From positions 372,001 to 436,000 of the forward strand of contig JAPFBL010000239.1 of NCBI GenBank assembly GCA_026182355.1: 64,000 nucleotides of DNA, given 5' to 3'. Within the stretch, counting starts at the first letter, position 1, and each line of letters begins with the position of its first letter. Positions 17,037 through 54,400 of the stretch are shown piece after piece. This DNA is from Hermatobates lingyangjiaoensis (taxonomy: Eukaryota > Arthropoda > Insecta > Hemiptera > Hermatobatidae). The position numbers and the translations under genes are program-made. Below the pieces are notes generated by a model. It made no database searches and was not told the DNA's origin. It saw nothing but the letters and a program-made list of their open reading frames with translations.

Positions 17037-17285
17037 GAGGTTGGTCAGGGTTAATATATGGAATCACCTTTTCGCCAACGTTTCGTCTTTATTTTAAGAC
17101 ATCCTCAGAGCCATAAACTAACAAAAAACAATGGAAATTTGTCAAATTTACTTTAATTTAATTTATTTTTTGTTATTATATAGCCTTGAGGATGTCTTAA
17201 AATAAAGACGAAACGCTGGCGAAAAGGTGATCCCATATATTAACCCTTACCAAACACCAAGAAGAAGAAAAAGTTTTTATTAGTA
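17037..17285. mobile_element. Family B inverted dimer, variant
   Basis: Two arms face outward (17037-17115 minus, 17180-17285 plus). Both carry GTCTT-AAAATA-AAGAC and GAAACG followed by GGCGAAAAGGTGAT. The spacer is AT-rich. The left arm keeps an intact hammerhead-like core (see 17074-17112). The right arm has UUGAGGA instead of CUGAGGA and CGC instead of CGU, so it is decayed. Confidence 0.75.
17074..17112 (-). ncRNA. Hammerhead-like motif, family B variant
   Basis: Read on the minus strand: GGCU, CUGAGGA, U, helix II GUCUU..AAGAC, GAAA, helix III ACGU, U at the cleavage position, then GGC. Helix I is about 3 pairs including one G.U. One unpaired base precedes helix II, as in every family here. 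Confidence 0.6.
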
Positions 17286-17859
17286 ATTGTGGTCAAGAAA
17301 ACAATACCTTATTTATCAGTAATATTATCTGTCTCAGACATGCATTTTCAGAATCATGTGTAGTTCCCTACAGTTAGAAATGTTAAAACTTGTTCATTTT
17401 TTATAAACATACATATGTAACAATGTTAATGTCTTATTAACAGCAAGAAATCAGAAAAATGATTAAAATCTTTCAACCAAAAACAAGTTTTTTTTTAAAT
17501 CCATTCATTTAGCATTCTCCATATATTATATTACATGCTATCGAATCTTAGTTTTAACATTTAAAATACATTACATTAAGTATATGTTAAATTTTTATTA
17601 CTTAAATATTTAGATACACACTATACAATTTTTGGAAAGTCTATAAGAAATTGTTTAACATTTTGAAATAGTTCACTGTTTTGCACTATCATACTATTTG
17701 CTGGAGGCCAGCCACAACCAGTTGTTTTTGGAAACGTTATAAATCGTTGTCGCTCTTGGTCAAGAATTCAGTCAAGCTGAAGAGTATATGGTTCCAAGTC
17801 TGTGGTGATACACTATCACATGAATACCTCTCACTGTGAATGATATGGGACCTAAACCA

Positions 17860-17985
17860 AAACAAGAGGTCTTCGCCAAAGTCCAAAGATACTTGGACTG
17901 GTTGAAACATCTTATAATTTTTCTGATTTTATTCTGTGGTTTATACGTTAATTTAAATTTCACGTGTTTATTATGAAATCTTGTT
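17860..17985 (+). mobile_element. Decayed family A module
   Basis: AGAGGTCTTCGCCAAAGTCC, then GGTTGAAACATCTTATAA and ATTTCACGTGTTTATTATG follow the order of family A, but with many substitutions. The CUGACGA box is lost. It is recognisable mainly by the tail, which is shared with 53600-53646. Confidence 0.55.
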
Positions 17986-18284
17986 ATATTTCTGACTATA
18001 TTTCATTCAGAAATAATATGAGTCAAAAGTTTTAAACTTCTTCATAATTTTTAAAACAAAAGACTTTCACATAAATATTATTTTATATACTATGAGTTGG
18101 AATACTATAACTATTAAAGCTCAATAGTATAGTCGAATTAAATACCTACACTTTTACTTTAACAACATAAAGTCACCTATATTAATTAAAAATAAGTAAA
18201 TTTCGATAATTGGAAAAATATATATATTTTATGATTCCTGCAAACAATTTTTGATATTTTTATGAAGATATAGTGTTTGTGGGT

Positions 18285-18425
18285 TGATAAATAAATTCTA
18301 TAAATAAATAATAAACATAAATAAACTCTGTAAATGAATAGTGTGTTGACAAATAAATTCTATAAATAAATAGTAAACATAAATAAACTCTATCAATAGT
18401 GTGATGATAAATAAACTCTATAAAT
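18285..18425. repeat. Short AT-rich tandem repeat (about 63 bp, two copies)
   Basis: AAATAAATTCTATAAATAAA and AACATAAATAAACTCTGT recur with GTGTGTTGA between them, about two copies. Chance frames across it encode Tyr/Ile-rich peptides only. Confidence 0.7.
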
Positions 18426-18892
18426 TTGTATGTATATACAAATTTATAAAATCTGTCAGTGTTTATGTATTTTTTTGTGAACATAATTTTATACCAGTTG
18501 ATCATAATAAAAAAAGAACTTTAAATTTGTGGATAATGTCAAATAATGAAGATATAATTTATACCAATAACAACTATTTTTTTCACTTAACAACCCATTT
18601 TTGTTGAAATATTGTTGTTTAAACCCCAACAATAACAGTCTACAGTATAATAATAGTATAGTATAGCTTGAGTCTTGGCTTATTCTATAGCAAGAACATC
18701 CCTTTCTGATGATCTTCTCTGCCTTGCTACTCAAGACAAATGACGAAATGCACAAGTCATAAGTGTGTTGGTATTTTTTATGTGGTTTCTTGTCCTTAAT
18801 TATATATAAATATTATGTTTATAATGACTCTAATATTATATAGGTTTTATATATATATCTATAACTATATATCATTATTACTGTAAAATGAT

Positions 18893-19130
18893 TTCACATA
18901 AACACGTGAAATAACAATCAATCATCAAACCACAATATGAAATGGGAAAACAAGACTAAGATCTTTCAAACGTAATAAGCGGTCTTCGGCAGAGTCAAAA
19001 ACTCCACTGACGGTTTTAAGAATAAACCCAACAGTTGGGATTTTGACTTTGACAAAGACCGCTTGTTACGGTTGAAAGATCTTAGTCTTGTTTTCCCATT
19101 TCATATTGTGGTTTGATCATTGATTATTTT
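18893..19130. mobile_element. Family A inverted dimer
   Basis: The left arm (minus) and right arm (plus) both carry the CCGCTTGTTACGGTT-like hairpin, GAAAGATCTTAGTC and TTGTTTTCCCATTTC. The left end keeps the CACGTGAAATAACAATCAAT terminus. The right end is cut off just before the (TA)n that adjoins the PLE. Both ribozyme cores are damaged: CUGCCGA on the left (18955-18996) and UUGACAA on the right (19043-19087). Confidence 0.8.
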
Positions 19131-19133
19131 AAC

Positions 19134-19155
19134 TATATATATATATATATATATT
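19134..19155. repeat. (TA)n tract at PLE junction
   Basis: Eleven TA steps separate a family A dimer from the terminal repeat of the PLE. The PLE repeat ends TTTGTAAA on this side, as do other PLE tails in the window. Confidence 0.9.
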
Positions 19156-19355
19156 TGTAAAATTTGGAAGCAGTCCTTCTTTTAAGCATATTTCGTTGAA
19201 CAGCTGACCGTATTTCGCTGATGTCATTTTCTTCACTAGTTTTTCAAGGTTTCTGAATACCTTCTTCTTTCCTTCATCCAAACGTTGGAGAATGTTAATT
19301 AAGTTATAACCGACATGTTTCGACTGGCTTCCAGTCATCTTCAGGGTGATTAATT
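19154..19355 (-). mobile_element. PLE terminal repeat (pseudo-LTR), downstream copy
   Basis: A direct repeat of 21789-21990 at an offset of 2635 bp, placed after the stop codon of the RT gene on the minus strand and ending in (TA)n. It encodes the same first 63 residues as the main protein before running into Ile-Tyr repeats. It carries a hammerhead-like motif at 19308-19348. Direct terminal repeats of this sort are typical of Penelope-like elements. Confidence 0.88.
19308..19348 (-). ncRNA. Hammerhead-like motif, family P
   Basis: Minus strand: ACC, CUGAAGA, U, helix II GACUGG-AAG-CCAGUC (6 pairs), GAAA, helix III ACAUGU, C at the cleavage position, GGU. Identical to the motif at 21943-21983. 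Confidence 0.75.
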
Positions 19356-19402
19356 AAACAAAGAGGAAAATTATTAGTCTTTGGAGTTGGTAATAAAACA
19401 CA

Positions 19403-21973
19403 TTATATAGTAGAAGTTTGAAGTAGCTGCTCTTCGGCCTGATTCACAAGAGCAACTGACTGAGGTGGGGTGGATGGTGGGGTGGGGGTACTGACAGTTA
19501 ACGGTTTTTTCATCCAATCAGGCGCATATAGTTTAAGCACTCTCTCACTACTACCCGTTTGAATATTTATTGTAGGTTTATTCTGTTTAATTATTATTGC
19601 TTCTGCGATTTGCAGCCGATTGAAGTTGTTTTCTTTTCTAATTATTTTAGTTCCACTCACGAGTAGGTCTCTAGTTATTTTGGTATTATGCTTGTCCTCT
19701 GAATGTTTCTTGGGACCACCTATAGAAAGGTGCATGGTAAGTCTTCTCGACAGTGATGTAGTTGTCATCCCAATGTATGAATCGTTGCAGGGCTCACGGT
19801 CCCGGATTTGACAGGTGTATTCATACACGAGATTAGACTCCTTCAGTTGAGAATCTTTAACCTTATTGCTATTTCTCATCACTAGGCTGCTTATGGTGGG
19901 GCTCCGATAATAGGTTATTAAGGCGACCTTATCCTCGGGTGAGGTGCATTTTATATTCTTCTTAATTATATCCTTGAGTACGCGTTCGTCTATTTTGTGG
20001 TCTTCCGAATACTGATTTTCGTAATAAAGGTTATGTGTTATGCCTGTTATTTGGTTATCGGTTTGACTGATGTGTTTCGAATTGAGATATTGTTTTAAAA
20101 TATTGTCAAAGAGAGAGTTGGAGTAGCCGTTGTTAATGAGGGATTGTTTTGTAAACTCGATGTCCTTCTGAAATAGTTTCCAATTTGCTGTTGTTTTATA
20201 GACTCTATGTATCAAGGCTTTTATTGTTGAGTTCTTGTATTGTTGTGGGCATTCACTGTTAGCATTAAGATAAGGTGCAGAGTTTGTGGACTTCTTGTGA
20301 ATTGATGTAGTAAGTTTTCGGTTATGGTAATCTATCTTTACGTCGAGGAAGTTGAGTTTATTATTGACAGCAATCTCTGAGGTGAATTTGAGACCGGACT
20401 CGTCTTCAAAAATCTCTTTAAGCCTGTTGAGTTCATTCTGATCTTTTACTACAACGAAACAGTCATCAACGTATCGGCAGTAGATAGTGGGTCTTGTCCC
20501 GAGTTTATTCATAATCTGGTTCTCCATGTGACACATATAGAAGTTGGCAAAGGTTACCCCCAGTGGTGAGCCCATGGCAACACCGTCAGTCTGAAGATAT
20601 AAACTTCCGTCCACATGGGTAAAAGGATTTTGCGTCGTGCATGCATGTAGAAGCTTTTCAAGGATGGTTCGGCTGAGAGGTGGAGGTGGTAGTTGGTTGT
20701 TGTAGGCGTAATCACAGATTATTTTTATTGTTTCCTTGACCGGTACGTTGGTAAAAAGGGATTCTACATCTAACGATGCTAAAGTTCCATCAGGTTCCAG
20801 GATTTTAAGGATGTCTAGAAATTCATCGGTTGATTTAACTACATATTTTGCAGGCATATAGGGTGTTATTATTTTGTTTAATTCTTTAGCTGTATTGTAG
20901 ACTGGGCTATTTATTTGTGAAATGATGGGTCTTAGTTTGTTTCCTGGCTTATGGATTTTTACGGTGCCGTAGATATATCCTGGGGAAAACTCTCCTACTA
21001 TGGTTTGTAGTATTTTCTCATCCTTCTCCTTATTTACTGTTCTAATTAGTTTATTGATACTGGTTTTAAGTTCCTTAGTAGGGTTACGGGTTATTTTCTT
21101 GAATTTTGTAGTATCAGATAGAATATCGTCAAGTTTCTTCTTGTACTCCTTGCGATCCATAATTACGAAGCAGTTACTCTTATCAGCCCGTCTGACAATA
21201 ATATCAGGGTGTTCTCGGAGCTCCTTTGCTGCATCCCGCAGTTCCTTGTTCAGAAGGATGCTCGGTTTAAGTCCTCGTTGTTTAGTCGATTCGGATCGTA
21301 ATTGGTCAGGAAGTGCTGGATCAATAGTGATTATATTTTGGGTTTGTAGATTTAATATATTGTTATATAGTGTTTCTAATTCTATTTTCTTCTTAATAGG
21401 GTCAAACTTTGGTTTATAGTGGCATTTTAGCCCCAGGGATAGAAGCTTCTTCTGTTTATTCGAGAGTTCGTGGGATGATATGTTTAAGTAGTTTTCAGTC
21501 ATAGTAGGGAGTAGTATATTGCCGTTGTACAGTTTATTCAATTTTTTCCTGATTCGTGTTAGTACGATGTCTTCTTCATGCTTTGTAATAACCTCAATAC
21601 ATTCAAGCACGTCCTCCATTAGTTGCGGGTCTTCAATGCATTCATTCAGTTCAGTTTTGATGTTCATAAATTTTGGTAAAAGTTCTTCATACTTGGCTTC
21701 ATTCTTTCTGGCTTCATACTTTAAAAGGTTACGTCTGTATTCCTGAGTGAAGTCCTTATTTCGGGCTGCTGGGTCATAAGTGCGTATGTTTGTAAAATTT
21801 GGAAGCAGTCCTTCTTTTAAGCATATTTCGTTGAACAGCTGACCGTATTTCGCTGATGTCATTTTCTTCACTAGTTTTTCAAGGTTTCTGAATACCTTCT
21901 TCTTTCCTTCATCCAAACGTTGGAGAATGTTAATTAAGTTATAACCGACATGTTTCGACTGGCTTCCAGTCAT
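19403..21973 (-). CDS. Penelope-like element protein: reverse transcriptase + GIY-YIG endonuclease
   Basis: Intact 856-residue open frame. The N-terminus is charged and probably helical (residues 1-260). RT motifs follow in order: RADKSNC (262-268), YGTVKIHKP (335-343), LRPI (347-350), catalytic LDVESLFTNVP (401-411, D402), GVAMGSPLG (464-472), YVDD (501-504) and FLDVKI (542-547). The GIY-YIG endonuclease occupies about 715-805: YEYTC (717-721), SYIGMTTTSLSRRL (732-745) and the RLQIAEAIIIKQNKP stretch with the likely metal-binding Glu at 791. The tail is Pro/Thr-rich. PLE proteins reverse-transcribe their RNA at a nick made by the GIY-YIG domain. The annotated ATG lies inside the hammerhead motif, so the first 9-10 codons would be removed by self-cleavage; Met38 is the next in-frame start. 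The near-identity to the partial copies beside it, and the lack of stops, indicate a young, possibly active copy. Confidence 0.95.
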   Translation of the reverse strand: MTGSQSKHVGYNLINILQRLDEGKKKVFRNLEKLVKKMTSAKYGQLFNEICLKEGLLPNFTNIRTYDPAARNKDFTQEYRRNLLKYEARKNEAKYEELLPKFMNIKTELNECIEDPQLMEDVLECIEVITKHEEDIVLTRIRKKLNKLYNGNILLPTMTENYLNISSHELSNKQKKLLSLGLKCHYKPKFDPIKKKIELETLYNNILNLQTQNIITIDPALPDQLRSESTKQRGLKPSILLNKELRDAAKELREHPDIIVRRADKSNCFVIMDRKEYKKKLDDILSDTTKFKKITRNPTKELKTSINKLIRTVNKEKDEKILQTIVGEFSPGYIYGTVKIHKPGNKLRPIISQINSPVYNTAKELNKIITPYMPAKYVVKSTDEFLDILKILEPDGTLASLDVESLFTNVPVKETIKIICDYAYNNQLPPPPLSRTILEKLLHACTTQNPFTHVDGSLYLQTDGVAMGSPLGVTFANFYMCHMENQIMNKLGTRPTIYCRYVDDCFVVVKDQNELNRLKEIFEDESGLKFTSEIAVNNKLNFLDVKIDYHNRKLTTSIHKKSTNSAPYLNANSECPQQYKNSTIKALIHRVYKTTANWKLFQKDIEFTKQSLINNGYSNSLFDNILKQYLNSKHISQTDNQITGITHNLYYENQYSEDHKIDERVLKDIIKKNIKCTSPEDKVALITYYRSPTISSLVMRNSNKVKDSQLKESNLVYEYTCQIRDREPCNDSYIGMTTTSLSRRLTMHLSIGGPKKHSEDKHNTKITRDLLVSGTKIIRKENNFNRLQIAEAIIIKQNKPTINIQTGSSERVLKLYAPDWMKKPLTVSTPTPPSTPPQSVALVNQAEEQLLQTSTI

Positions 21974-21990
21974 CTTCAGGGTGATTAATT
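21789..21990 (-). mobile_element. PLE terminal repeat (pseudo-LTR), upstream copy
   Basis: This repeat overlaps the start of the RT gene (residues 1-63). It is preceded on the minus strand by the 3' end of another copy of the element (22009-23163), so two units lie in tandem. With 19154-19355 it defines a 2635-bp repeating unit. Confidence 0.88.
21943..21983 (-). ncRNA. Hammerhead-like motif, family P (start of RT gene)
   Basis: Same structure as 19308-19348. The palindrome TTAATTAA lies on both sides beyond helix I and could extend it. Predicted cleavage falls after ..CATGTC, within codon 9-10 of the open frame. Cleavage here and at the downstream copy would release a 2635-nt RNA. Confidence 0.75.
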
Positions 21991-22008
21991 AAACAAAGAG
22001 GAAAATTA

Positions 22009-23163
22009 TTAGTCTTTGGAGTTGGTAATAAAACACATTATATAGTAGAAGTTTGAAGTAGCTGCTCTTCGGCCTGATTCACAAGAGCAACTGACTGAGG
22101 TGGGGTGGATGGTGGGGTGGGGGTACTGACAGTTAACGGTTTTTTTCATCCAATCAGGCGCATATAGTTTAAGCACTCTCTCACTACTACCCGTTTGAAT
22201 ATTTATTGTAGGTTTATTCTGTTTAATTATTATTGCTTCTGCGATTTGCAGCCGATTGAAGTTGTTTTCTTTTCTAATTATTTTAGTTCCACTCACGAGT
22301 AGGTCTCTAGTTATTTTGGTATTATGCTTGTCCTCTGAATGTTTCTTGGGACCACCTATAGAAAGGTGCATGGTAAGTCTTCTCGACAGTGATGTAGTTG
22401 TCATCCCAATGTATGAATCGTTGCAGGGCTCACGGTCCCGGATTTGACAGGTGTATTCATACACGAGATTAGACTCCTTCAGTTGAGAATCTTTAACCTT
22501 ATTGCTATTTCTCATCACTAGGCTGCTTATGGTGGGGCTCCGATAATAGGTTATTAAGGCGACCTTATCCTCGGGTGAGGTGCATTTTATATTCTTCTTA
22601 ATTATATCCTTGAGTACGCGTTCGTCTATTTTGTGGTCTTCCGAATACTGATTTTCGTAATAAAGGTTATGTGTTATGCCTGTTATTTGGTTATCGGTTT
22701 GACTGATGTGTTTCGAATTGAGATATTGTTTTAAAATATTGTCAAAGAGAGAGTTGGAGTAGCCGTTGTTAATGAGGGATTGTTTTGTAAACTCGATGTC
22801 CTTCTGAAATAGTTTCCAATTTGCTGTTGTTTTATAGACTCTATGTATCAAGGCTTTTATTGTTGAGTTCTTGTATTGTTGTGGGCATTCACTGTTAGCA
22901 TTAAGATAAGGTGCAGAGTTTGTGGACTTCTTGTGAATTGATGTAGTAAGTTTTCGGTTATGGTAATCTATCTTTACGTCGAGGAAGTTGAGTTTATTAT
23001 TGACAGCAATCTCTGAGGTGAATTTGAGACCGGACTCGTCTTCAAAAATCTCTTTAAGCCTGTTAAGTTCATTCTGATCTTTTACTACAACGAAACAGTC
23101 ATCAACGTATCGGCAGTAGATAGTGGGTCTTGTCCCGAGTTTATTCATAATCTGGTTCTCCAT
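22009..23163 (-). pseudogene. 5'-truncated PLE copy, C-terminal part
   Basis: Near-identical to residues 483-856 of the intact protein (YVDD and GIY-YIG parts kept), but lacking the N-terminal half. A run of seven T instead of six at about 22140 shifts the frame after DWMKK, replacing the normal Pro/Thr-rich tail. It joins an inverted copy at 23163-23170. It lies in tandem upstream of the intact unit. Confidence 0.93.
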
Positions 23164-23170
23164 GTGACTT

Positions 23171-23794
23171 TATTACGAAAATCAGTATTCGGAAGACCAC
23201 AAAATAGACGAACGCGTACTCAAGGATATAATTAAGAAGAATATAAAATGCACCTCACCCGAGGATAAGGTCGCCTTAATAACCTATTATCGGAGCCCCA
23301 CCATAAGCAGCCTAGTGATGAGAAATAGCAATAAGGTTAAAGATTCTCAACTGAAGGAGTCTAATCTCGTGTATGAATACACCTGTCAAATCCGGGACCG
23401 TGAGCCCTGCAACGATTCATACATTGGGATGACAACTACATCACTGTCGAGAAGACTTACCATGCACCTTTCTATAGGTGGTCCCAAGAAACATTCAGAG
23501 GACAAGCATAATACCAAAATAACTAGAGACCTACTCGTGAGTGGAACTAAAATAATTAGAAAAGAAAACAACTTCAATCGGCTGCAAATCGCAGAAGCAA
23601 TAATAATTAAACAGAATAAACCTACAATAAATATTCAAACGGGTAGTAGTGAGAGAGTGCTTAAACTATATGCGCCTGATTGGATGAAAAAACCGTTAAC
23701 TGTCAGTACCCCCACCCCACCATCCACCCCACCTCAGTCAGTTGCTCTTGTGAATCAGGCCGAAGAGCAGCTACTTCAAACTTCTACTATATAA
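23171..23794 (+). pseudogene. Inverted 5'-truncated PLE copy, GIY-YIG part
   Basis: Plus-strand copy of residues 651-856 (starting YYENQYSEDHK) with the normal stop, then 3' UTR and a terminal repeat. It is open throughout but has no RT domain. Arranged tail-outward relative to the minus-strand units, it makes the whole locus a large imperfect palindrome. Confidence 0.93.
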
Positions 23795-23833
23795 TGTGTT
23801 TTATTACCAACTCCAAAGACTAATAATTTTCCT

Positions 23834-24005
23834 CTTTGTTTAATTAATCACCCTGAAGATGACTGGAAGCCAGTCGAAACATGTCGGTTATAACTTAATT
23901 AACATTCTCCAACGTTTGGATGAAGGAAAGAAGAAGGTATTCAGAAACCTTGAAAAACTAGTGAAGAAAATGACATCAGCGAAATACGGTCAGCTGTTCA
24001 ACGAG
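23834..24005 (+). mobile_element. PLE terminal repeat, inverted copy, truncated
   Basis: Matches the other terminal repeats through residue 50 (..QLFNEI) and then passes directly into (AT)n at 24006. This is shorter by about 40 bp at the tail than the copy at 19154. Confidence 0.88.
23849..23889 (+). ncRNA. Hammerhead-like motif, family P, plus strand
   Basis: CACC (23849-23852), CUGAAGA (23853-23859), U, GACUGG-AAG-CCAGUC (23861-23875), GAAA (23876-23879), CAUGUC, then GGUU (23886-23889). The core is intact. Confidence 0.75.
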
Positions 24006-24130
24006 ATATATATATTTGTATACTTGGAGAGCAGACCTCCTTTCAAACATATTTCATTAAATTCTTTGCCAATTTTTATTCTTTCCTGTTTCCTAGATAT
24101 CTTTTCCAATCTTCTGATCAGGGGCTTCCA
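24006..24130 (-). mobile_element. Older PLE terminal-repeat tail
   Basis: After (AT)n, TTTGTATACTTGGAGAGCAG, then CTCCTTTCAAACATATTTC parallels the PLE tail TTTGTAAAATTTGGAAGCAG in minus orientation, with substantial divergence. Two PLE tails therefore converge on the same (TA)n tract. Confidence 0.6.
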
Positions 24131-27692: not shown

Positions 27693-27735
<43 letters not shown>

Positions 27736-27737
27736 AA

Positions 27738-27906
27738 GATTTCACATAAACACGTGAAATAACAATCAATGATCAAACCAAAATAAGAAATGGGAAAACA
27801 AGACTAAGACAAAACCCAGTTGGGTTTTTGACTCTGACGAAGACCGCTTGTTACGGTTGAAATATCTTAGTCTTGTTTTCCCATTTCTTATTGTGGTTTG
27901 ATCATA
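27738..27906. mobile_element. Family A dimer, left arm truncated
   Basis: The left arm keeps only the terminal CACGTGAAATAACAATCAAT to AAGACTAAGAC part. The right arm is complete and carries an intact ribozyme core. (TA)n flanks both sides (27692-27730 and 27906-27945). Confidence 0.82.
27830..27872 (+). ncRNA. Hammerhead-like motif, family A
   Basis: GACU (27830-27833), CUGACGA (27834-27840), A, GACC-loop-GGUU (27842-27858), GAAA (27859-27862), UAUCU, U, AGUC (27869-27872). The core is intact; helix III is weakened (AUAUCU instead of the palindromic AGAUCU). Confidence 0.68.
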
Positions 27907-31982: not shown

Positions 31983-32690
31983 CTTGCGTCTTGCGTGTCA
32001 GCACTGACACGCGTGTCATAGGTTTGCCGTAACTAAGGTAGATTGTCACTCCAGGGTGCAGCGTTGGTGTGTGAGGAGCGGTTCTTTTCATAAGATCACC
32101 CTGAAGTGACAAGTGGGGACCACAGCACTGCTGTGTCAGCACTGACATGCGTGTCATAGGTTTGCCGTAACTGGGGTATATCGTCACTCCAGGGTGCAGC
32201 GTTGGTGTGTGAGGAGCGGTTCTTTTCATAAGATCACCCTGAAGTGACAAGTGGGGACCACAGCACTGCTGTGTCAGCACTGACATGCGTGTCATAGGTT
32301 TGCCGTAACTGGGGTATATCGTCACTCCAGGGTGCAGCGTTGGTGTGTGAGGAGCGGTTCTTTTCATAAGATCACCCTGAAGTGACAAGTGGGGACCACA
32401 GCACTGCTGTGTCAGCACTGACATGCGTGTCATAGGTTTGCCGTAACTGGGGTATATCGTCACTCCAGGGTGCAGCGTTGGTGTGTGAGGAGCGGTTCTT
32501 TTAATAAGATCACCCTGAAGTGACAAGTGGGGACCACAGCACTGCTGTGTCAGCACTGACATGCGTGTCATAGGTTTGCCGGAACTGGGGTATATCGTCA
32601 CTCCATGGTGCAGCGTTGGTGTGTGAGGAGCGGTTTTTTTCATAAGATTACCCTGAAGTGACAAGTGGGGACCACATCACTGCTGTATCA
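31983..32690 (-). repeat. 138-bp satellite with an open frame
   Basis: Five copies of a 138-bp unit; GTGTCAGCACTGAC begins at 31995 and 32133. Because 138 is a multiple of three, the minus strand stays open for 230 codons as five 46-residue repeats (SLQGDLMKRTAPHTPTL, HPGVTIYPSYGKPM, TRMSVLTQQCCGPHL). Substitutions are few. No family was recognised. The frame may be an accident of unit length rather than a gene. Confidence 0.88.
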
Positions 32691-33079
32691 GCCAGGAGAT
32701 TCAAATCTGTCTGGGGAGTCATTTCTAGAACAATGGTGATCAGTTGGTCTTGAGCGCTTAATCTGGAGTAACCCACAACCACAGACCGCAACTAGCATGT
32801 ACAAGCCACTCCCTGTTTTAATTTTTTTTTTATTCTTATCTGTATGACGTGAGTAAATAGCTTATTTTATAAATAATATATTAGTTTCTCTTTATTTGTT
32901 CAACCATAACAGTGAATGTTCTTTTCAAATTTGCGATTCGAGAATAGAATTAATGGTATGTCAGTTACACGGATAATCTAATAGTTTTGCTAGAAATAAA
33001 ACTAGAAATTAATTTCATAGGAATTCACATCTAGAATACATGCATATTGTTATTACCACTGAGATTTGTATGATTTATA

Positions 33080-33172
33080 TTAGGAAAAACCGTCATCCCT
33101 CGTAAGATGTTCTTGGAGTTGTTGGAGTGCTTTCGAACGTTGTTCATCTTCAATAGCAACTAACCTATTTGA
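33080..33172 (-). mobile_element. Family H module, left half of an interrupted dimer
   Basis: The reverse complement reads GTTGCTATTGAAGATGAACA, ACGTTCGAAAGCACTCCAAC, then GAGGGATGACGG. A related right half lies at 33727-33835, with a family G dimer between. The hammerhead-like motif has box UUGAAGA, helix II GAAC-AAC-GUUC, GAAA and helix III AGCACU. Helix I is interrupted by three bases. Confidence 0.7.
33161..33172. other. 12-bp target duplication, left copy
   Basis: TAACCTATTTGA, repeated exactly at 33727-33738 on the other side of the family G dimer. Confidence 0.85.
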
Positions 33173-33726: not shown

Positions 33727-33840
33727 TAACCTATTTGAGGTTACTGTTGGTAGCGATTGAAGATGGACAACACCCGAAAGCGCTCCAATGACTTCAAGAC
33801 ATCTTACGATGTATGACAGTATCCCCTATTTCTGTTATAA
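33727..33840 (+). mobile_element. Family H module, right half
   Basis: Starts with the second copy of the 12-bp duplication, then GATTGAAGATGGACAACACC, CGAAAGCGCTCCAATGAC and TACGATGTATGACAGTATCC. Nearly identical to 34812-34910. Confidence 0.72.
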
Positions 33841-34329
33841 AAAATATAGAATGGTTGAGAATTACTGCTCAATTTAGCAAGTTTATTATTAATTTTTTCT
33901 TTATAATTCAATGAATTGCTGATTATTTGTTAACTACTTTAATATGAGTAGGACAGATGAAATGCGACTTTTTGAAAAGCACTTGATATTAAAGAGCGAG
34001 GGGGGGGGTGCTCATTGTATACGAGGCGTGTATTATTAAAGAGCACATTCTAATGATGATATCATTAAGTGTGCCAAGCGATGCCTTAAACGGATAAATT
34101 AGAACGATTTCCATAGCGTGCCACTCGCAATAAAATAACCAAGTAATGATTGTTATAAAAGTCTCCTATCGCATCGAATTATCAATTCAAAAGAGTCATG
34201 GAGCTTTGTGACTTAACAATAACTGAACCAAAAGAAAGTCAATCTAAGTTTTAAGAAAATAGAAAACTTCAATTAAATCATCATCATCATCATCATGTAT
34301 TTTATCATCATATGATATTACTCATCAAC
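33841..34329. other. No recognised gene
   Basis: Contains a G run near 34001-34009 and an (ATC)n tract near 34278-34296. Otherwise AT-rich. Confidence 0.4.
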
Positions 34330-36760: not shown

Positions 36761-36780
36761 CATATATATATATATATAAA

Positions 36781-36970
36781 AAGATTTCACATAAACACGT
36801 GAAACAACAATCAATGATCAAACCACAATAAGAAATGGGAAAACAAGACTAAGATTTTCAACCGTAACAAGCGGTCTTTTGAACCAAGCCGTTTTTGACT
36901 CTGACGAAGACCGCTTGTTACGGTTGAAAATCTTAGTCTGTTTTCCCATTTCTTATTGTGGTTTGATCAT
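36781..36970. mobile_element. Family A inverted dimer, compact
   Basis: Outer terminus CACGTGAAACAACAATCAAT at the left; (TA)n at both ends. The left arm lost its CUGACGA box; the right arm is intact. The dimer centre is only about 15 bp (GAACCAAGCCG). Confidence 0.82.
36897..36938 (+). ncRNA. Hammerhead-like motif, family A
   Basis: GACU, CUGACGA (36901-36907), A, GACC-loop-GGUU, GAAA (36926-36929), AUCU, U, AGUC (36935-36938). Helix III is one base shorter than the family norm. Confidence 0.65.
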
Positions 36971-37017
36971 ATATATATATATTATATATATATATATAAT
37001 ATATATAATATATAAAA

Positions 37018-37163
37018 TTGTCACAATAACACGTGATATAAATATTCAGGTAACTCACCACAAATTAAAGAAGATAGTCGCTCTAAGGCCTTTCGCTTTC
37101 ACGTCGTCAGAGAGCAAGTGACGACGTGAAATTAATTAATTAATTAATTTGTGGTGAGTTACC

Positions 37164-37168
<5 letters not shown>
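37018..37168. mobile_element. Family C inverted dimer
   Basis: Begins TGTCACAATAACACGTGATA. Arms share GTAACTCACCACAAATTAA against its complement. The left (minus) arm has a ribozyme-like motif; the right arm keeps only TGACGACGTGAAA. (TA)n tracts flank both sides. Confidence 0.75.
37080..37115 (-). ncRNA. Hammerhead-like motif, family C
   Basis: Helix I GCUCU/AGAGC (5 pairs), CUGACGA, C, a very short helix II GU-GAAA-GC, GAAA, helix III AGGCCU, U at the cleavage position. The two-pair helix II makes activity uncertain. Confidence 0.5.
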
Positions 37169-40604: not shown

Positions 40605-41570
40605 AGACCATTCCATACATGGTCGTTGCAGTACCTTAGAATTGCTCTATAGTCCAATCCATACATGGATGGAGTATAGTATATGGACGGAGTAGCAGTA
40701 CTCTAGAAATGCTCTATAGACCAATCCATACATGGACGTAGCAATACACTAGAAATGCTCTACAGACCAATCTATAAATGGACGTAGCATTACACTAGAA
40801 ATGCTCTTTAATCCAATCCATACATGGACGTAGCAATACACTAGAAATGCTCTATAGACCAATCCATACATGGACGTAGCAATACACTAGAAATGCTCTA
40901 CAGACCAATCTATAAATGGACGTAGCATTACACTAGAAATGCTCTTTAATCCAATCCATACATGGACGTAGCAATACACTAGAAATGCTCTATAGACCAA
41001 TCCATACATGGACGTAGCAATACACTAGAAATGCTCTACAGACCAATCTATAAATGGACGTAGCATTACACTAGAAATGCTCTTTAATCCAATCCATACA
41101 TGGACGTAGCATTACACTAGAAATGCTCTATAGATCAATCCATACATGGACGTAGCAATACACTAGAAATGCTCTACAGACCAATCTATAAATGGACGTA
41201 GCATTACACTAGAAATGCTCTTTAATCCAATCCATACATGGACGTAGCAATACACTAGAAATGCTCTATAGACCAATCCATACATGGACGTAGCAATACA
41301 CTAGAAATGCTCTATAGACCAATCCATACATGGACGTAGCAGTACCTTAGAAATGCTCTATAGACCAATCCACACATGGACGTAGCAGTACCTTAGAAAT
41401 GCTCTATAGACCAATCCATACATCTATGTAGAAGTACCCTAGAAATTCTCTACAGTCCAATCCATACATGGACGTTGTAATACTCTAGAAATGTTCTACA
41501 GTCCAATCCATACATGGATACATGGACGTAGCAGTGCCCTGGAAATTGTCTACATACCGATCCATACTTA
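40605..41570. repeat. 46-bp satellite with trimeric higher-order repeat
   Basis: About 21 copies of a 46-bp unit built from ACTAGAAATGCTCT and CCAATCCATACATGGACGTA. Between about 40705 and 41265 three variants alternate regularly, with CTATAGACC, CTACAGACC(AATCTATAAATGG) and CTTTAATCC. That is four full A-B-C cycles, a 138-bp higher-order unit. The edges are more diverged. Confidence 0.93.
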
Positions 41571-42255: not shown

Positions 42256-42274
42256 TTCTTGTTATACGAATGTT

Positions 42275-42652
42275 TTCCAATCTCGACCACATATATTTAA
42301 CATTATTTTTCTTTCTTATCGAGGTTTGGTTTAGCTTCAATAATGCAACACCTTTAAGCCGACGTTTCGTCTATATTTGTAGACATCTTCAGGGCTACAT
42401 CAATAAAGAGTTTAGTTGCTATAACATGAAACATAATTATATTACATTATTTAATTAATATACATAATTACCTTGGTATTTTTCTATTATGAGGAACTAA
42501 CTACATAATAAAAAATACCTCATAATAGAAAAATGCCAAGGTAATTATGTATAAAGATGTCTACAAATATAGACAAAACGTCGTCTTAAAGGTGTTGCAT
42601 TATTGAAGCTAGACCAAACCTCGATAACAAAGAAAAATAGTGTTTTATATGT
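42275..42652. mobile_element. Family B inverted dimer
   Basis: Outer ends TTATCGAGGTTTGGTTTAGC and GCTAGACCAAACCTCGATAA. The centre has inverted CTATTATGAGG segments. The left (minus) motif is intact. The right arm (42551-42590) has lost the box (AUAAAGA) and has AAAA for GAAA. Confidence 0.85.
42357..42396 (-). ncRNA. Hammerhead-like motif, family B, intact
   Basis: AGCC/GGCU helix I (4 pairs), CUGAAGA, U, helix II GUCUA-CAAAUA-UAGAC (5 pairs), GAAA, helix III ACGU, C at the cleavage position. Confidence 0.75.
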
Positions 42653-42659
42653 ATAACAT

Positions 42660-42884: not shown

Positions 42885-43035
42885 AAAGACTTCACACGTG
42901 AAATAACAATCAATGATCAAACCACAATAAGAAATGGGAAAACAAGACTAAGATCTTTCATCCGTAACAAGCGGTCTTCGTCAGAGTCAAAAACCCATCT
43001 GAGTTGTGGTTTGATCATTTATATATATATATATA
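42885..43035 (-). mobile_element. Family A module, right arm deleted
   Basis: Left arm complete from CACGTGAAATAACAATCAAT through the ribozyme motif, then a jump to TTGTGGTTTGATCAT (right terminus) and (TA)n. The right-arm ribozyme has been deleted. Confidence 0.8.
42946..42988 (-). ncRNA. Hammerhead-like motif, family A
   Basis: GACU, CUGACGA, A, helix II GACC-loop-GGAU (one mismatch), GAAA, AGAUCU, U, AGUC. The core is intact. Confidence 0.66.
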
Positions 43036-44786: not shown

Positions 44787-45573
44787 CGAGGTGTGTAAAT
44801 AAAGTAGTGAGACTGGCAACGTCGCTTTCGATCTGGCAACGCTGGAGACGCGTGGTTTTGAGTAGGTGCACGTGTGATGCGCCTCCAGTATGAATCTGAA
44901 CTCGCCACAGTCATTTGTTTGTCCGTAGCGTTGGTTTTCGTGAAATGGTTTTTTCGTGAAATGGTTCTTTTTAAAACGTGAGCGTTTTAAAAATGAGTGA
45001 CCTCAAAGTTGAGCAGCGGTGTGCAATCAAATTTTGCTTCAGACTTGGACATAATGCAACCGAAACTTTTGAAAAACTTCAGGAGGCCTATGGAGAACGT
45101 GTTTTATCAAGGGCACAGGTTTTTCGGTGGTTTAAGGAATTTTCAGAAGGAAGAGAGTCGATTGAAGACGAACCACGACATGTGGGTGTTGCATCACGAC
45201 AACGCGCCCTGTCACACTGCCATCTCAATAAACGAGTTTTTGGCCAGTAAAAACATTCCTGTTGCTCCTCAGCCTCCTTATTCACCAGACTTGAGTCCTT
45301 GTGACTTTTTCCTCTTCCCGAGATTGAAAAATCACCTCAAGGGAACTCATTTCGGGACACTACAAAACATACAAACCGACCTGCTGTAACCGACCAGCTG
45401 AAGGCCATTCCAGAATCCGAGTTCCAGCAATGCTACAATGATTGGAAGGACCGTCTCCAGCGCTGTGTGGCTTCCGAAGGGAACTATTTTGAAGGTGACA
45501 ATATCACATTGTAATTATATTTGAATAGAAAATTTAAAAAAAATCAGTCTCACTACTTTATTTACACACCTCG
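44787..45573 (+). mobile_element. Internally deleted mariner element
   Basis: Perfect 29-bp inverted ends starting CGAGGTGTGTAAATAAAG (44787-44815 and 45545-45573), flanked by TA target dinucleotides (44785-44786 and 45574-45575). At 787 bp it is much shorter than a full mariner (about 1.3 kb). The perfect ends suggest a fairly recent insertion. Confidence 0.95.
44993..45514 (+). pseudogene. Mariner transposase, internally deleted
   Basis: N-terminal DNA-binding part MSDLKVEQRCAIKFCFRLGH, with the RAQVFRWFKEFSEGRESIED stretch. At about 45172-45182 it jumps to WVLHHDNAPCHTA and YSPDLSPCDFFLFPRLK, the second and third catalytic-Asp regions of the D,D34D core. The first catalytic Asp and roughly half the protein are missing, and the join is out of frame. 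A second frame change near 45385 precedes the normal C-terminus (..GNYFEGDNITL). Such a transposase cannot be active. Confidence 0.93.
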
Positions 45574-45899: not shown

Positions 45900-46552
45900 G
45901 TTGGAGGCGCTGATTGAAAGGAGAAGATACCGGGAGTGTGGCCTGCCGAGGAGTGAATGACCTGCCGTGACTGTGTACCATGTGTAGGCGCAGTGCTTTA
46001 CCTTGAACCAGTCCCTTATCACTTCCTCTCTAATATCACACAGTAAGTTACCATCAGGCCATGATCAAGGGGCCGAGGATAAGATACCGGGAGTGTGGCC
46101 TGACGAGGAGTGAATGACCTGCCATGACTGTGTACCATGTGTAGACGCAGTGCTTTACCTTGAACCAGTCCCTTATCACTTCCTCTCTAATATCACACAG
46201 TAAGTTACCATCAGGCCAGGATCAAGGGGCCGAGGATAAGATACCGGGAGTGTGGCCTGACGAGGAGTGAATGACCTGCCATGACTGTGTACCATGTGTA
46301 GACGCAGTGCTTTACCTTGAACCAGTCCCTTATCACTTCCTCTCTAATATCACACAGTAAGTTACCATCAGGCCATGATCAAGGGGCCGAGGATCAGATA
46401 CCGGGAGTGTGGCCTGCCGAGGAGTAAATGACCTGCCATGACTGTGTACCATGTGTAGACGCAGTGCTTTACCTTGAACCAGTCCCTTATCACTTCCTCT
46501 CTAATATCACACAGTAAGTTACCATCAGGCCAGGATCAAGGGGCCGGACATT
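45900..46552. repeat. 157-bp tandem repeat, four copies
   Basis: AGATACCGGGAGTGTGGCCT starts at 45925, 46083, 46239 and 46396. Units differ at a handful of positions and include CAGTCCCTTATCACTTCCTC and ATCAAGGGGCCG. GC-rich for this window; no conserved open frame. Confidence 0.93.
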
Positions 46553-48784: not shown

Positions 48785-49039
48785 AATATGGTCAAACCAC
48801 AATAAGAAATGGGGAACAAAGACTAAGATCTTTCAACTATAACAAGTGGTCTTCGTCAGAGTCAAAACCCCAACCAAAAACTAAAAACAAACCCAACCAA
48901 AAAACCCAACTTCGTCAGTTGTGCTTTTGACTCTGACAAAGACTGCTTGTTGCGGTTGAAAGATCTTAATCTTTGTTTCCTAGTTTTTACTGTGACTTCA
49001 ACATTTAAATGTTATTTCACGTGTTTATTGTGAAATCTT

Positions 49040-49045
<6 letters not shown>
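48785..49045. mobile_element. Family A inverted dimer
   Basis: Both arms present. The left (minus) arm keeps CUGACGA (48821-48863). The right (plus) arm has CUGACAA (48929-48971), with helix I changed to GACU/AAUC. The right terminus ATTTCACGTGTTTATTGTG runs into (TA)n at 49043-49073. Confidence 0.83.
48821..48863 (-). ncRNA. Hammerhead-like motif, family A
   Basis: GACU, CUGACGA, A, GACC-loop-AGUU, GAAA, AGAUCU, U, AGUC. The core is intact; helix II is weakened by one mismatch. Confidence 0.62.
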
Positions 49046-49640: not shown

Positions 49641-49681
49641 AACCCTGAAGATGACTGGAAGCCAGTCGAAACATGTTGGTT
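49641..49681 (+). ncRNA. Hammerhead-like motif, family P
   Basis: AACC (49641-49644), CUGAAGA, U, GACUGG-AAG-CCAGUC, GAAA (49668-49671), CAUGU, U at the cleavage position, GGUU. Helix I is four perfect pairs. Confidence 0.72.
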
Positions 49682-49842
49682 CTACCCTATTTAATATTCT
49701 CCAATGTTTGGATGAAGGAAAGAAGAAGGTATTCAGAAACCTCGAAAAACTGGTGAAAAAAATGACATCAGTAAAATACGGTTAGTTATTCAATAAAATA
49801 TGTTTGAATGAAGGACTGCTCCCAAATTTTACAAATATACAT
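49641..49842 (+). mobile_element. Solo PLE terminal repeat
   Basis: Same organisation as 19154-19355 with about 90 percent similarity by eye: hammerhead motif, then GGATGAAGGAAAGAAGAAGG and AAGGACTGCTCCCAAATTTT, ending in (TA)n at 49838-49858. A stop replaces the QLFNEI region, so it is older than the main locus. Confidence 0.85.
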
Positions 49843-49860
49843 ATATATATATATATATTG

Positions 49861-50120
49861 GTAAAAGTATCGACCGTGTAGTAGAAACAAAATAAAAGTT
49901 TATCAATACTCTGTCAGTTCTTCAGGTTCAAATTCAACTTTCATTGCTAAAGTTTCGACTATTCTTTAAAAAACCTTTTTCAAGATACTACAAAACAGTG
50001 GAATTATAAAAAAGAAATAAAGAATTCTTATATTTTATTCTTTTTGCAGGTCTATAAAAAGGTTTTAAATAAAAGCCGAAACAATGGCAATGAGAGTTTA
50101 ATTTGAACTTGAAGACCTAA
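49861..50120. repeat. Small inverted-repeat element beside (TA)n
   Basis: Arms TTCAGGTTCAAATTCAACTT.. (49913-49980) and ..GTTTAATTTGAACTTGAAG (50045-50118) are diverged inverses containing GTTTCGACTATT/AAGCCGAAAC. This may be a further ribozyme-module family too decayed to fold. Confidence 0.55.
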
Positions 50121-50439
50121 TAGAGTCCTAATAATATTGATTTTGAATATACATATATAACATTTAAACATTGAAAAATAATCCAAATAATCAGTAATAA
50201 CTTGAAAACGTTGTTCTATTCTCCTCTGATTGCAAACTATCACTCAAGGTATGGTAAGAGCAGGAAGAAACCCGAAAGAGAACTGATTATTACAGCTCTC
50301 TTTCAATGCTTTCACTCTCTTAATGGTGGTCATCAGGAGATAAGTGGTCCAGTCAAGAGATGACATTAACTCTATAAGAATAATCACAAAATATGACATA
50401 AACTGTCATGTTTATAGCTTTTTTGCATATATAAATAAC

Positions 50440-51589: not shown

Positions 51590-51860
51590 TTGTGAAATCC
51601 GTAATTGTGCGGTATTTTCTCATACTAGGATAAATAATCAAAGTTTCCACACATAAAAAAGAAGCTCAGCGTCTGGTAAACTTCTACAATACAAATTACA
51701 AGTTAAAAGTTACAAAAATAACAGCAATTGTATACAATCCAATGTCTACTCCTACATTTGGGAATGTCAATCTTTTTCTTTGGATTGAAAATTCCTGTTA
51801 TTTTTGAAACTTAACTTCGTTATTTTAAAAAGCTTCGTTTTTATGTGTGAAGATATTGAT
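51590..51860. mobile_element. Family G dimer remnant
   Basis: Left tail TCATTAGTTGTGAAATCCGT, GTGCGGTATTTTCTCATAC, then arms around AAAAAAGAAGC. Ribozyme parts largely lost. Confidence 0.6.
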
Positions 51861-51956
51861 ATAATCGAATGTTTTTCTTTTCTCGAACACATATATTTAA
51901 CAGTATTTTTCTTTTTTATCGAGGTTTGGTCTAGCTTCAATAACACAACATCTTTA

Positions 51957-51996
51957 AGCTGACATTTCGTCTATATTTTTAGACATCTTCAGGGCT
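51957..51996 (-). ncRNA. Hammerhead-like motif, family B
   Basis: AGCC/AGCU helix I (one mismatch), CUGAAGA, U, GUCUA-loop-UAGAC, GAAA, AUGU, C. The core is intact. Confidence 0.62.
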
Positions 51997-52138
51997 AGAT
52001 CAACACAGAATTTTAATCACACAATATCTATTTCTTCTCTTTCACAATAGAAAAATTCCAAGGTAATTATATATATTAATTAAATAATTTAATATAATTA
52101 CTTTTCATGTTATTGTAATTAAAATTTTGTATTGATGT

Positions 52139-52178
52139 AGCCCTGAAGATGTCTACAAATATAGACGAAACATCGGGT
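52139..52178 (+). ncRNA. Hammerhead-like motif, family B
   Basis: AGCC (52139-52142), CUGAAGA, U, GUCUA-CAAAUA-UAGAC, GAAA (52167-52170), CAUC, GGGU. Helix I has one mismatch; the core is intact. Confidence 0.62.
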
Positions 52179-52216
52179 TAAAGGTGTTGTATTATTGATG
52201 TTGTATTATTATTAAA

Positions 52217-52914: not shown

Positions 52915-53018
52915 GTCAACTCCATGATCATCTTACGAGGTATGACGGTTTTACCTATTTCTAATATAAATTGTAATATTGAAGCTAGACCAAACCTCGT
53001 TAAAGAAGAAAAATATTG

Positions 53019-53020
<2 letters not shown>
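52915..53020 (+). mobile_element. Family H tail joined to family B tail
   Basis: ATCTTACGAGGTATGACGG to TCTAATATAAAT is the H tail. It passes into GAAGCTAGACCAAACCTCG, the outer end of family B, then (TA)n at 53027. Two module ends are fused without ribozyme parts. Confidence 0.68.
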
Positions 53021-53063
<43 letters not shown>

Positions 53064-53070
53064 TATATAT
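53021..53070. repeat. (TA)n tract
   Basis: Long TA run before the family D palindrome. Confidence 0.93.
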
Positions 53071-53118
53071 AATAAAACAAAAAACGAAGGAAACACACAG
53101 AAAGACACAGACATAACT

Positions 53119-53156
53119 CACATCGATATTTCGACAATCGTCGTCATCAGGAGGTG
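53119..53156 (-). ncRNA. Hammerhead-like motif, family D, left arm
   Basis: CACCUC, CUGAUGA, C, GAC-GAUU-GUC, GAAA, UAUC, GAUGUG. Helix I is 2 + 3 pairs round one mismatch; helix III is AUAU. Confidence 0.68.
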
Positions 53157-53274
53157 CGAAGAGCGAAGAGCGAAGAGCGAAGAGTCCCGCAGGAAGACAG
53201 GGCGGTACTCAGGGGGTACCGCCCTGTCTTCCTGCGGGACTCTTCGCTCTTCGCTCTTCGCTCTTCGCTCTTCG

Positions 53275-53312
53275 CACCTCCTGATGACGACGATTGTCGA
53301 AATATCGATGTG
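53275..53312 (+). ncRNA. Hammerhead-like motif, family D, right arm
   Basis: Mirror image of 53119-53156: box CUGAUGA at 53281-53287, GAAA at 53299-53302, cleavage-position C at 53306. Confidence 0.68.
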
Positions 53313-53420
53313 AGTTATGTCTGTGTCTTTCTGTGTGTTTCCTTCGTTTTTTGTTTTATTGTAAAAAAGTCCGCTGGACCGTTTCTTTTAATTGTGTATA
53401 TATATATATATATATATATA

Positions 53421-53646
53421 TGATCAAACCACAATAAGAAATGGGAAAACAAGACTAAGATCATTCAACCATAACAAGCGGTCTTCGTCAGAGTCAAAAA
53501 CTCAACTTGGTTTGTTGAGTTTTTCAGTTGGGTTTTTGACTCTGACAAAGACCGCTTGTTACGGTTGAAAGATCTTAGTCTTGTTTTCCCATTTTCTTAT
53601 TGTGGTTTGATCATTGATTGTTATTTCACGTGTTTATGTGAAATCT
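53421..53646. mobile_element. Family A inverted dimer, complete
   Basis: Both arms are long: left TGATCAAACCACAATAAG inward, right outward to CACGTGTTTATGTGAAATC. The left motif (53453-53495) keeps CUGACGA but has GAAU. The right motif (53538-53580) has CUGACAA with perfect flanking helices. (TA)n on both sides. Confidence 0.86.
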
Positions 53647-53662
53647 TTATATATATATATAT
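53647..53662. repeat. (TA)n tract
   Basis: Separates family A from family F. Confidence 0.9.
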
Positions 53663-53906
53663 TGTGTTGAACTGAATTGTGGCCATCAATATTTATTGAT
53701 TAACATTTGACATGTTTCGGTTGTCTCCAACCATCTTCAGAAATTATTTTAAACTATCACAAAACAAAACTATTTTCATCGAACAAGTCAATTCCAATAC
53801 TCGCTGTTTAAATGGAGCAGGTAAAAATCTTTAATTTTATTGATTAAAGCAATTCAGTTCAACACAATTTGTATAAAAGAAGGTCTTGCTCCCTATTTAT
53901 ACTAAT
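53663..53906. mobile_element. Family F dimer with PLE-like tail
   Basis: Inverted ends TGTTGAACTGAATTG (53662-53676) and CAATTCAGTTCAACA (53850-53864). The right side continues GTATAAAAGAAGGTCTTGCT, then CCCTATTTATAC, matching the PLE terminal-repeat tail, then (TA)n. The left (minus) arm has an intact ribozyme core; the right has lost it. The central piece ACTCGCTGTTTAAATGGAGC recurs at 54327. Confidence 0.8.
53705..53744 (-). ncRNA. Hammerhead-like motif, family F, intact
   Basis: AUUU/AAAU helix I (4 pairs), CUGAAGA, U, GGUUG-GAGA-CAACC (5 pairs, GNRA-type loop), GAAA, ACAUGU, C. One of the cleanest motifs in the window. Confidence 0.75.
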
Positions 53907-53921
53907 ATATATATATATATA

Positions 53922-54113
53922 AGGTGGCTGCACTGCGTGTCATTGTATCGCGCCAGTTTACATCGGCCAGTGGACGCATTTACGTCTCCGTTCCTTCATT
54001 CTTTCTTTTTTTATTTTCTTTCTTTCTACTCTCCTGAAGACGGCAAGACGCCGAAATTATCGAGATTCGTGGGTGTTTGTCCTTTTTCTTGTGTTCTCTA
54101 GCTGTAACTTTAA
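53922..54113 (+). mobile_element. Family K module
   Basis: Bounded by (TA)n on both sides. The 5' part CGGCCAGTGGACGCATTTAC is followed by a CT-rich tract and the ribozyme motif, ending TCTAGCTGTAACTTTAAT. A decayed relative lies at 63665-63765 (CGGTAGGTGGACGCTTTCAC). A 71-codon frame across it is fortuitous. Confidence 0.75.
54030..54065 (+). ncRNA. Hammerhead-like motif, family K, intact
   Basis: UCUC/GAGA helix I (54030-54033 and 54062-54065), CUGAAGA (54034-54040), C, GGC-AAGAC-GCC, GAAA (54053-54056), UUAU, C at 54061. Confidence 0.7.
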
Positions 54114-54400
54114 TTATATATATATATATTTACCACACATTATTAATTATATTAATTATTTTCGACTATATTCAATTTCTTTGATGGTCTTCATAATAGA
54201 TGACAGGGTAAATTAAGTTGCAGTCCACAACAATGGTAGTCGATTTTCTCTCAAGCACCAGAGACTCTTTTGTTAGCACCATTTGATGATCACTGACAAT
54301 TTGATTACCAAACAAATCAATTTTACTCGCTGTTTAAATGGAGCAGGCAAAAATCTTCAACTCGCTCAAGTGTTCAACCAAGCGATGAGTGAGGGCTCTC
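54114..54400. mobile_element. (TA)n and decayed family F relative
   Basis: After TA repeats, TTTGATGGTCTTCATAATAG suggests a broken CUGAAGA-type box, and ACTCGCTGTTTAAATGGAGC repeats the centre of the element at 53663. Confidence 0.55.

Follow-up and report, generated by a model that had tools for sequence, protein, structure and literature searches.

The described system closest to the elements reported here is Poseidon of Anolis carolinensis (PAc; PMC11167929), a Penelope-like element (PLE) whose reverse transcriptase (RT) frame has an endonuclease-like C terminus and a start codon overlapped by a hammerhead ribozyme, and which has pseudo-long terminal repeats (pLTRs), AT-rich targets, an internal start of reverse transcription and an optional tail of 30–40 nucleotides (nt). 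Penelope of Adineta vaga (PMC3846280) has head-to-head inverted pLTRs with a 31-bp tail on one of them, short target duplications and likewise AT-rich targets. Minimal hammerheads, made up of the core and a very short stem III, have mostly been described in animals as dispersed motifs of unknown role and may self-cleave as dimers (PMC7761336), and the animal non-LTR retrozymes (PMC7229834; LTR, long terminal repeat) are short units with type I hammerheads that coexist with PLEs. Here we analyze a 64,000-nt stretch of the genome of Hermatobates lingyangjiaoensis (GCA_026182355.1, contig JAPFBL010000239.1, positions 372,001–436,000 of the forward strand; hereafter the window), in which minimal hammerheads sit in a PLE, termed P, and in several families of much shorter elements.

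The PAc features listed above have their counterparts here, the hammerhead over the start codon in P itself and the endonuclease-like C terminus as a putative one; our material differs from PAc in consisting mostly of short, twin-inserted elements with the tail on exactly one arm wherever this was testable. The elements of A. vaga are alike in all the points named, but they are few and long, their tail was called optional and self-priming was proposed for them, whereas the one-tail rule found here over many copies argues for two separate starts of reverse transcription. In contrast to dispersed minimal hammerheads, which they match in core and stem III, the hammerheads of the window are parts of defined, twin-inserted elements whose insertion leaves a regular signature. 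The units of retrozymes, ~170–400 nt long and with canonical hammerheads, are repeated directly in tandem; our elements are mostly head-to-head and their hammerheads minimal. The class and architecture of PLEs were already known; as far as our limited searches go, the short twin families, the one-tail rule and the sharing of tails between families are new. A search of the open-access literature, which gives a weak negative because of that coverage, found no description of twin-inserted short hammerhead elements with a one-tail rule. The insertion signature separates two published ideas of PLE integration, self-priming and priming on both strands, and both can be put to the test on thousands of natural insertions in the genome.

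Twin insertions with a tail on one arm

The family letters (P, A, B, G, C, D, E, F, J, H and K) are our own. At least one copy in the window has an intact hammerhead core in nine families (P, A, B, G, C, D, E, F and J). K and H are without an intact core there, H being a truncated copy of M2, a family found elsewhere in the genome with its core intact. B is related to G, and D to D'. Families A, B, G, C, D, E, F, H and J are far shorter than the coding of a PLE protein would need. Among the longest 25 of the 52 inverted repeats found within 700 bases, we read one (3604–4349) as unrelated, one (49900–50134) as doubtful and the rest as these elements.

A typical insertion consists of two arms joined at their 5' sides, with the hammerheads pointing outward. 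The arms differ at their outer ends: one finishes at a short end, whereas the other has ~30–40 more bases, here called the tail; the inner (5') junction differs from copy to copy. Tails were tested in a leave-one-out design, in which the 60 bases past the arm-to-arm homology were compared with those of other insertions of the same family. In all 15 insertions of families A (6), C (5), B (2), P (1) and E (1), one arm scored z 6.6–23 and the other z ≤3.3. The single family J insertion gave z 5.4 versus −1.3, and the family H insertion, compared with the tail of a genomic M2 copy, z 17.8 on the left and 0.2 on the right. All 17 testable insertions of the window were thus one-tailed, with the tail on the left in 10 and on the right in 7.

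In family A, the tail lies on the left arm of A18 (18884..19132), A27 (27735..27906, in which this arm is truncated and the hammerhead is in the right one), A36 (36779..36971, hammerhead 36897–36938, plus strand) and A42b (42888..43019, right arm of ~16 nt, hammerhead 42946–42988, minus strand), and on the right arm of A48 (48788..49042, hammerhead 48821–48863, minus strand) and A53 (53420..53651). J36 (37013..37166) is tailed on the left, and its hammerhead (37080–37115, minus strand) has GCTCT/AGAGC and a helix III of AGGCCT. Both family B twins are tailed on the left, namely B42 (42258..42655, hammerhead 42357–42396, minus strand) and B51 (51856..52198, hammerheads 51957–51996 on the minus and 52141–52176 on the plus strand), the right arm of the latter ending early. 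Family C is tailed on the right in C24 (24174..24380), C31 (30976..31145), C33 (33172..33725, hammerhead 33226–33273, minus strand) and C35 (35617..35850, hammerhead 35672–35719, minus strand), and on the left in C34 (34318..34680). E53 (53662..53904, hammerhead 53705–53744, minus strand) has a short right arm with a PLE-like tail, and the arms of H55 (55146..55368) are truncated inside helix II, with the M2 tail on the left. G17 (17012..17312, hammerhead 17074–17111, minus strand) has a weak tail on the right that resembles the M1 tail, D53 (53063..53396) has identical hammerheads at 53119–53156 (minus strand) and 53275–53312 (plus strand), and the family F element (53922..54129, plus strand, hammerhead 54030–54065) lies between (TA)n tracts with one arm seen. 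The claim of an earlier note, made from the letters of the window alone and called here the sequence-only reading, that most of the motifs sit in short elements was borne out.

Hammerhead motifs are also very numerous in the genome, as that reading had expected: the pattern CTGANGANN{4,30}CGAAACRTCGG had 2,898 forward and 2,967 reverse matches (5,865) in 910 Mb, against one forward and one reverse match of the reversed control pattern. Such numbers may be ordinary for an animal, since one coral has been reported with >6,000 motifs in 16 families (PMC7229834). Among 100 listed places there were 24 neighbouring pairs within 1.2 kb, of which 23 were divergent, one convergent and none direct. Forty loci were fetched by position, 23 of them being the divergent pairs and the remaining 17 stretches holding other places of the list. 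Exactly one tail was found at z>6 in 21 of the 22 simple pairs (M1 6, M2 14, B 2) and two tails in none; in the remaining pair (L017) a tail carrying a deletion lay on one side (z 5.0 versus 2.9). Body and tail pieces from single copies were used to search a locus with three hammerheads (L014) and the 17 loci that looked single, and revealed a second arm in 16 of these 18, each with exactly one family tail match. Consequently, the fetched loci with both arms were one-tailed in 38/38 cases, one tail being damaged; at one locus (L034) the arms are ~430 bases apart and might be two insertions. The same held for all seven P copies with both ends in view (the window, L058, L062, L065, L066, L073/L076 and L079), whose short end falls at query 267–276 and whose tail end lies past 314; the six outside the window are contiguous head-to-head joins. 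Overall, 61/61 insertions with both arms and a recognisable family tail are one-tailed, and none is two-tailed. In six loci (L037, L039, L045, L047, L049 and L050) the strongly truncated arm was the tailed one, a tendency only, as A42b and P19 are opposite.

The autonomous element P

P occupies 19134..24009, where a full and a 5'-truncated minus-strand copy are joined head-to-head, at 23168, with a 5'-truncated plus-strand copy, as delimited by self-BLAST; the left end is tailed (z 13.4) and the right end short (z 1.5). It shows pLTRs, 5' truncation, an inverted partial copy and a tail. Its open reading frame of 861 amino acids (19403..21988, minus strand) encodes a reverse transcriptase (Pfam RVT_1, 3.3e-12, YVDD), and the YVDD aspartates and flanking columns are invariant in a six-sequence alignment. 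Of 7,988 scored candidates, 693 are relatives of the protein at E≤1e-10; we take these relatives to be PLEs. The C-terminal stretch aligns to a GIY-YIG-bearing relative (P0113, 42% identical), which scores 2e-05 over the matching region; in P itself, Pfam GIY-YIG gave no match even at E≤5, and the endonuclease there is putative. One hammerhead (21944..21982, minus strand) overlaps the start of the frame, the ATG of which is formed by A9, the extra U and G10.1. The link to PLEs drawn in the sequence-only reading was right, but that reading had mentioned neither this open frame nor the two-armed layout, the one-tail rule or the (TA)n targets. Further copies of the motif lie in the 3' pLTR copy (19309..19347, minus strand, helix III ACATGT) and in the inverted copy (23850..23888, plus strand), and a diverged P copy at 49641..49855 (plus strand) has a tail and a hammerhead at 49641–49681.

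A search of the genome with P gave at least 54 matches (53 of 54,192 first-look candidates scored). Seven of the 30 loci given hold a full-length copy with an open frame and a rounded identity of 100%, which indicates that P moved recently, and many truncated copies were also seen. Two full-length copies stand in direct tandem (L055/L056, G000 C1618), an arrangement described for PLE sources. No PLE relatives were found in viral contigs, and no PLE match in phage records or solved structures.

Probable insertion from both strands and competing explanations

We consider it probable, as a joint reading, that these are Penelope-class retroelements, that they were inserted by reverse transcription on both cut strands beginning at either of two sites, and that P and the short families have their cis modules in common: a minimal type I hammerhead, whose stem III is self-complementary, then a short 3' end and, beyond it, the family's own tail. 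A PLE protein would cut both target strands at AT-rich DNA, and each cut strand would prime reverse transcription of uncleaved element RNA, one starting at the inner site to give the short end and the other at the outer site to give the tail, so that the two cDNAs would meet at their 5' sides as a head-to-head twin. That the templates would be uncleaved follows from reverse transcription running through the hammerhead and agrees with PAc, in which mutants of the hammerhead still insert in vitro. (TA)n would be left on both sides of each insertion; new elements could therefore land beside old ones, and chains would grow. Purified PLE protein does cut and extend both strands at AT-rich DNA, and its reverse transcription begins within the RNA, at a pair of neighbouring sites in agreement with the genomic tail (PMC11167929). 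A deletion in A36 and one site in A48 are private to a single insertion and common to both of its arms, which suggests that both arms come from one kind of template. The short families would be mobilised by a PLE protein in trans.

A number of observations weigh against this reading. In the in vitro work, start sites did not differ between strands (PMC11167929); that work therefore does not predict the use of one site by each strand, which is our own proposal. The genome sample was taken from the head of the list, on contigs 1–5, and not at random; copies within it also supplied the M1, M2 and B tail sequences. Two fetched loci (L036 and L046) have one arm and no tail. In the window, the right arm of B51 stops before the short end, with its flank at z 3.3, the tail of G17 is weak (z 2.7 versus −0.5), D53 has ~30 extra 3' bases on its right arm only and no second copy for comparison, and the tail comparison found no tail on either arm of K43 and X47. 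Single arms occur as F, A17, A42s, A47 and a family B arm at 52977–53028, and the three D' copies are single-armed with a common 5' end and no tail; for all of these, cut-down partners were not searched for. Finally, the ends of C, G and K lie in no long (TA)n tract.

The competing explanation that survives best, though we regard it as unlikely, holds that the small families are not independently mobile and represent no more than 5'-truncated or solo pLTR pieces derived from a number of autonomous PLEs. In its favour, E has the tail of P, P leaves many truncated copies, the frame from the hammerhead ATG stays open for ~34 codons in the left arm of C35, to just beyond the short end, and short open stretches occur in A, C, D, D' and F. 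Against this, the corresponding frame is closed after 14 codons at most in B, E and G, and after the tail the arms of M1, M2 and B pass into (TA)n or copy-specific sequence, unlike P arms, which often run on into the open reading frame. The ATG made by the extra base is kept in B, C, E and G with no PLE frame behind it in these copies, and looks like a trace of PLE ancestry, to judge from the sequence.

Self-priming, in which one cDNA folds back and copies itself into a palindrome, has been proposed for rotifer Penelope, with an argument from inverted junctions (PMC3846280). It would account for head-to-head palindromes with variable junctions and for the variants common to both arms in A36 and A48. 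Nevertheless, self-copying would give both arms equal 3' ends, and these differ by the tail in all 61 testable insertions; the idea fits poorly, would need the copied arm to end at the inner site every time, and is in our view quite improbable. Movement of the palindrome as one unit was likewise disfavoured, as junctions vary and neither the A36 deletion nor one of the A48 sites occurs outside its own insertion, where both arms have it; on the other side, a site common to both arms of A18 recurs in A42s, and G8 differs between arms in A18, A48 and A53.

A retrozyme origin, with hammerhead-cleaved circular RNAs as templates (Cervera and de la Pena 2020), would suit small AT-rich units with type I hammerheads in a PLE-bearing genome (PMC7229834) as well as the partial direct repeat of one arm at L012 and L048, and the sequence-only reading had invoked retrozymes. 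This found no support: the units do not form tandem arrays of the retrozyme kind, 23 of the 24 neighbouring pairs among the 100 listed places were divergent and none direct, and direct arrangements were confined to those two loci and the P tandem. Stem III is without a loop in eight of nine families, the arms run through the hammerhead and, of the few junctions read, none lies exactly at the predicted cut (A27 within ~4 nt), so that this origin appears very improbable. By the same few junctions, a role of hammerhead cleavage in setting the 5' ends was unsupported.

Foldback or MITE-type DNA transposons (MITE, miniature inverted-repeat transposable element) that happen to hold hammerheads are hardly credible in spite of the inverted-repeat form, short length and TA-rich targets, as the ends are unequal by the family tail and so are no symmetric terminal inverted repeats, the inner junction is variable with 5' truncation and the RT-coding P has the identical layout, although no transposase search was made.

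The hammerhead motif and its stem III

Minimal hammerheads of the PLE type have reportedly been treated by Cervera and de la Pena in 2014 and by Lunse et al. in 2017. The order helix I/CUGANGA/extra base/helix II/GAAA/helix III/H/helix I, proposed in the sequence-only reading, is present at the claimed places, including 42357–42396, 53705–53744 and 54030–54065. Searched for by its core alone (CTGANGA, 8–22 bases, GAAA; pairing not required), the motif matched 25 times in the window, whereas 400 dinucleotide shuffles averaged 2.37 matches and never exceeded 8. Twenty-two of the 25 sit in repeat families, which agrees with the 'about twenty' intact cores counted before, and in each of the 22 a single extra base separates A9 from helix II; the others (35478, 50302 and 62281) are probably chance matches, as their helix II is weak and they lie in no recognised family. 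A scan that scored pairing found 22 motifs at ≥18, compared with 0.147 per shuffled window (maximum 2). By contrast, an Rfam search reported no hammerhead, either at gathering score or at E≤10.

Pairing was tested by exchanging strands between families, with one copy, picked by us, from each of nine families. Helix I was paired at 31/36 positions versus 21.0 after permutation (P 3e-4) and helix II at 33/36 versus 22.2 (P 5e-5), in line with the compensatory differences between families that had been claimed. In eight of nine families the 4 or 6 bases of stem III are self-complementary, which holds for 7.8% of the 497 cores matched in shuffles (P 1e-8). Having no room for a loop, such a stem could form fully only between two molecules; the helix III cores offered earlier as evidence of pairing are indeed self-complementary, but not within one molecule to their full extent. 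The earlier figure of 'at least ten' families was slightly generous: there are many, but nine have an intact core, B–G and D–D' are related, and P–E and A–J have common tails. In sequence the motifs have the core and three helices of a type I hammerhead and are putative ribozymes. Modelled folding, which is suggestive only, gave helix I probabilities ≤0.38 in seven single arms; in the predicted twin transcripts, A53, D53, A36 and B42 lose both native helices, and E53 keeps helix II (0.97).

It is conceivable, though we think improbable, that the minimal hammerhead is an RNA-pairing device for transposition, in which stem III (ACAUGU, AGAUCU, ACGU, AUAU or AGGCCU) pairs two element RNAs. If so, one PLE complex would hold two templates, one copied per cut strand with an inner and an outer start, to yield the one-tailed twin, and cleavage may be secondary. 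PAc hammerhead mutants insert normally in vitro (PMC11167929), which suggests that the hammerhead is not needed for insertion and weakens this dimer idea.

In family A, G8 is changed to A within a CpG (CTGACGA to CTGACAA) in one arm of A18, A48 and A53 and perhaps of A36 (arms 18954–19087, 48821–48980 and 53420–53614), likely a recurrent CpG decay of the ribozyme core. Core position C3 is changed in the K copies read; two inverted K arms (33081–33167 and 33753–33841) enclose the C33 element. Of three hammerhead patterns searched in viral contigs, two gave no match and one led to two contigs with unrelated hammerhead-like motifs. These IMG/VR motifs (L001, 11732–11792, plus strand; L002, 3671–3733, minus strand) are strong, with a longer, looped stem III and an extra base after A9 that the search pattern itself forced.

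Targets, chains and shared tails

In families A, P, E, D, D', F and J, 22 of 27 ends abut (TA)n of ≥12 nt, compared with 1.9% of random positions. In B, C, G, H and K, 1 of 20 ends adjoins such a tract. For these counts ends were placed partly by eye, and the left end of H was taken before its tail was recognised. In the fetched genome loci, (TA)4 or more occurs within 190 bases of the hammerhead in 31/31 M2, 21/23 M1 and 4/10 B arms, and another of these families lies within 260 bases of 12/65 arms. The window holds a chain of five elements, B-(TA)n-D-(TA)n-A-(TA)n-E-(TA)n-F, at 52977..54129. C33 has an apparent 12-bp target duplication, TAACCTATTTGA.

Tails are alike between P and E (z 7.1), A and J (z 8.1) and M1 and G (z 8.7); that of B is nearest to G and M1 at z ~3, which is not significant among 45 comparisons. 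Because families with different bodies have a common tail, the tail may be what the enzyme recognises, in analogy to short interspersed nuclear elements, which share the tails of long interspersed nuclear elements. Tails as stable hairpins were rejected: eight folded tails gave z −2.2 to +0.9, only two A tails being modest.

Other features of the window

A short repeat at 55059–55141, which directly adjoins the tailed end of H55, recurs at 34980–35102 and 2885–3003; we take it to be tRNA-like, and ARAGORN found no tRNA. Two overlapping open stretches at 44975–45389 read like what is presumably a broken mariner-type transposase. Tandem arrays lie at 462–1775 (unit of ~56 bp), 5051–6766 (~98 bp), 31995–32692 (~138 bp), 40692–41567 (~46 bp), 45919–46546 (~157 bp) and 60326–61127 (~39 bp).

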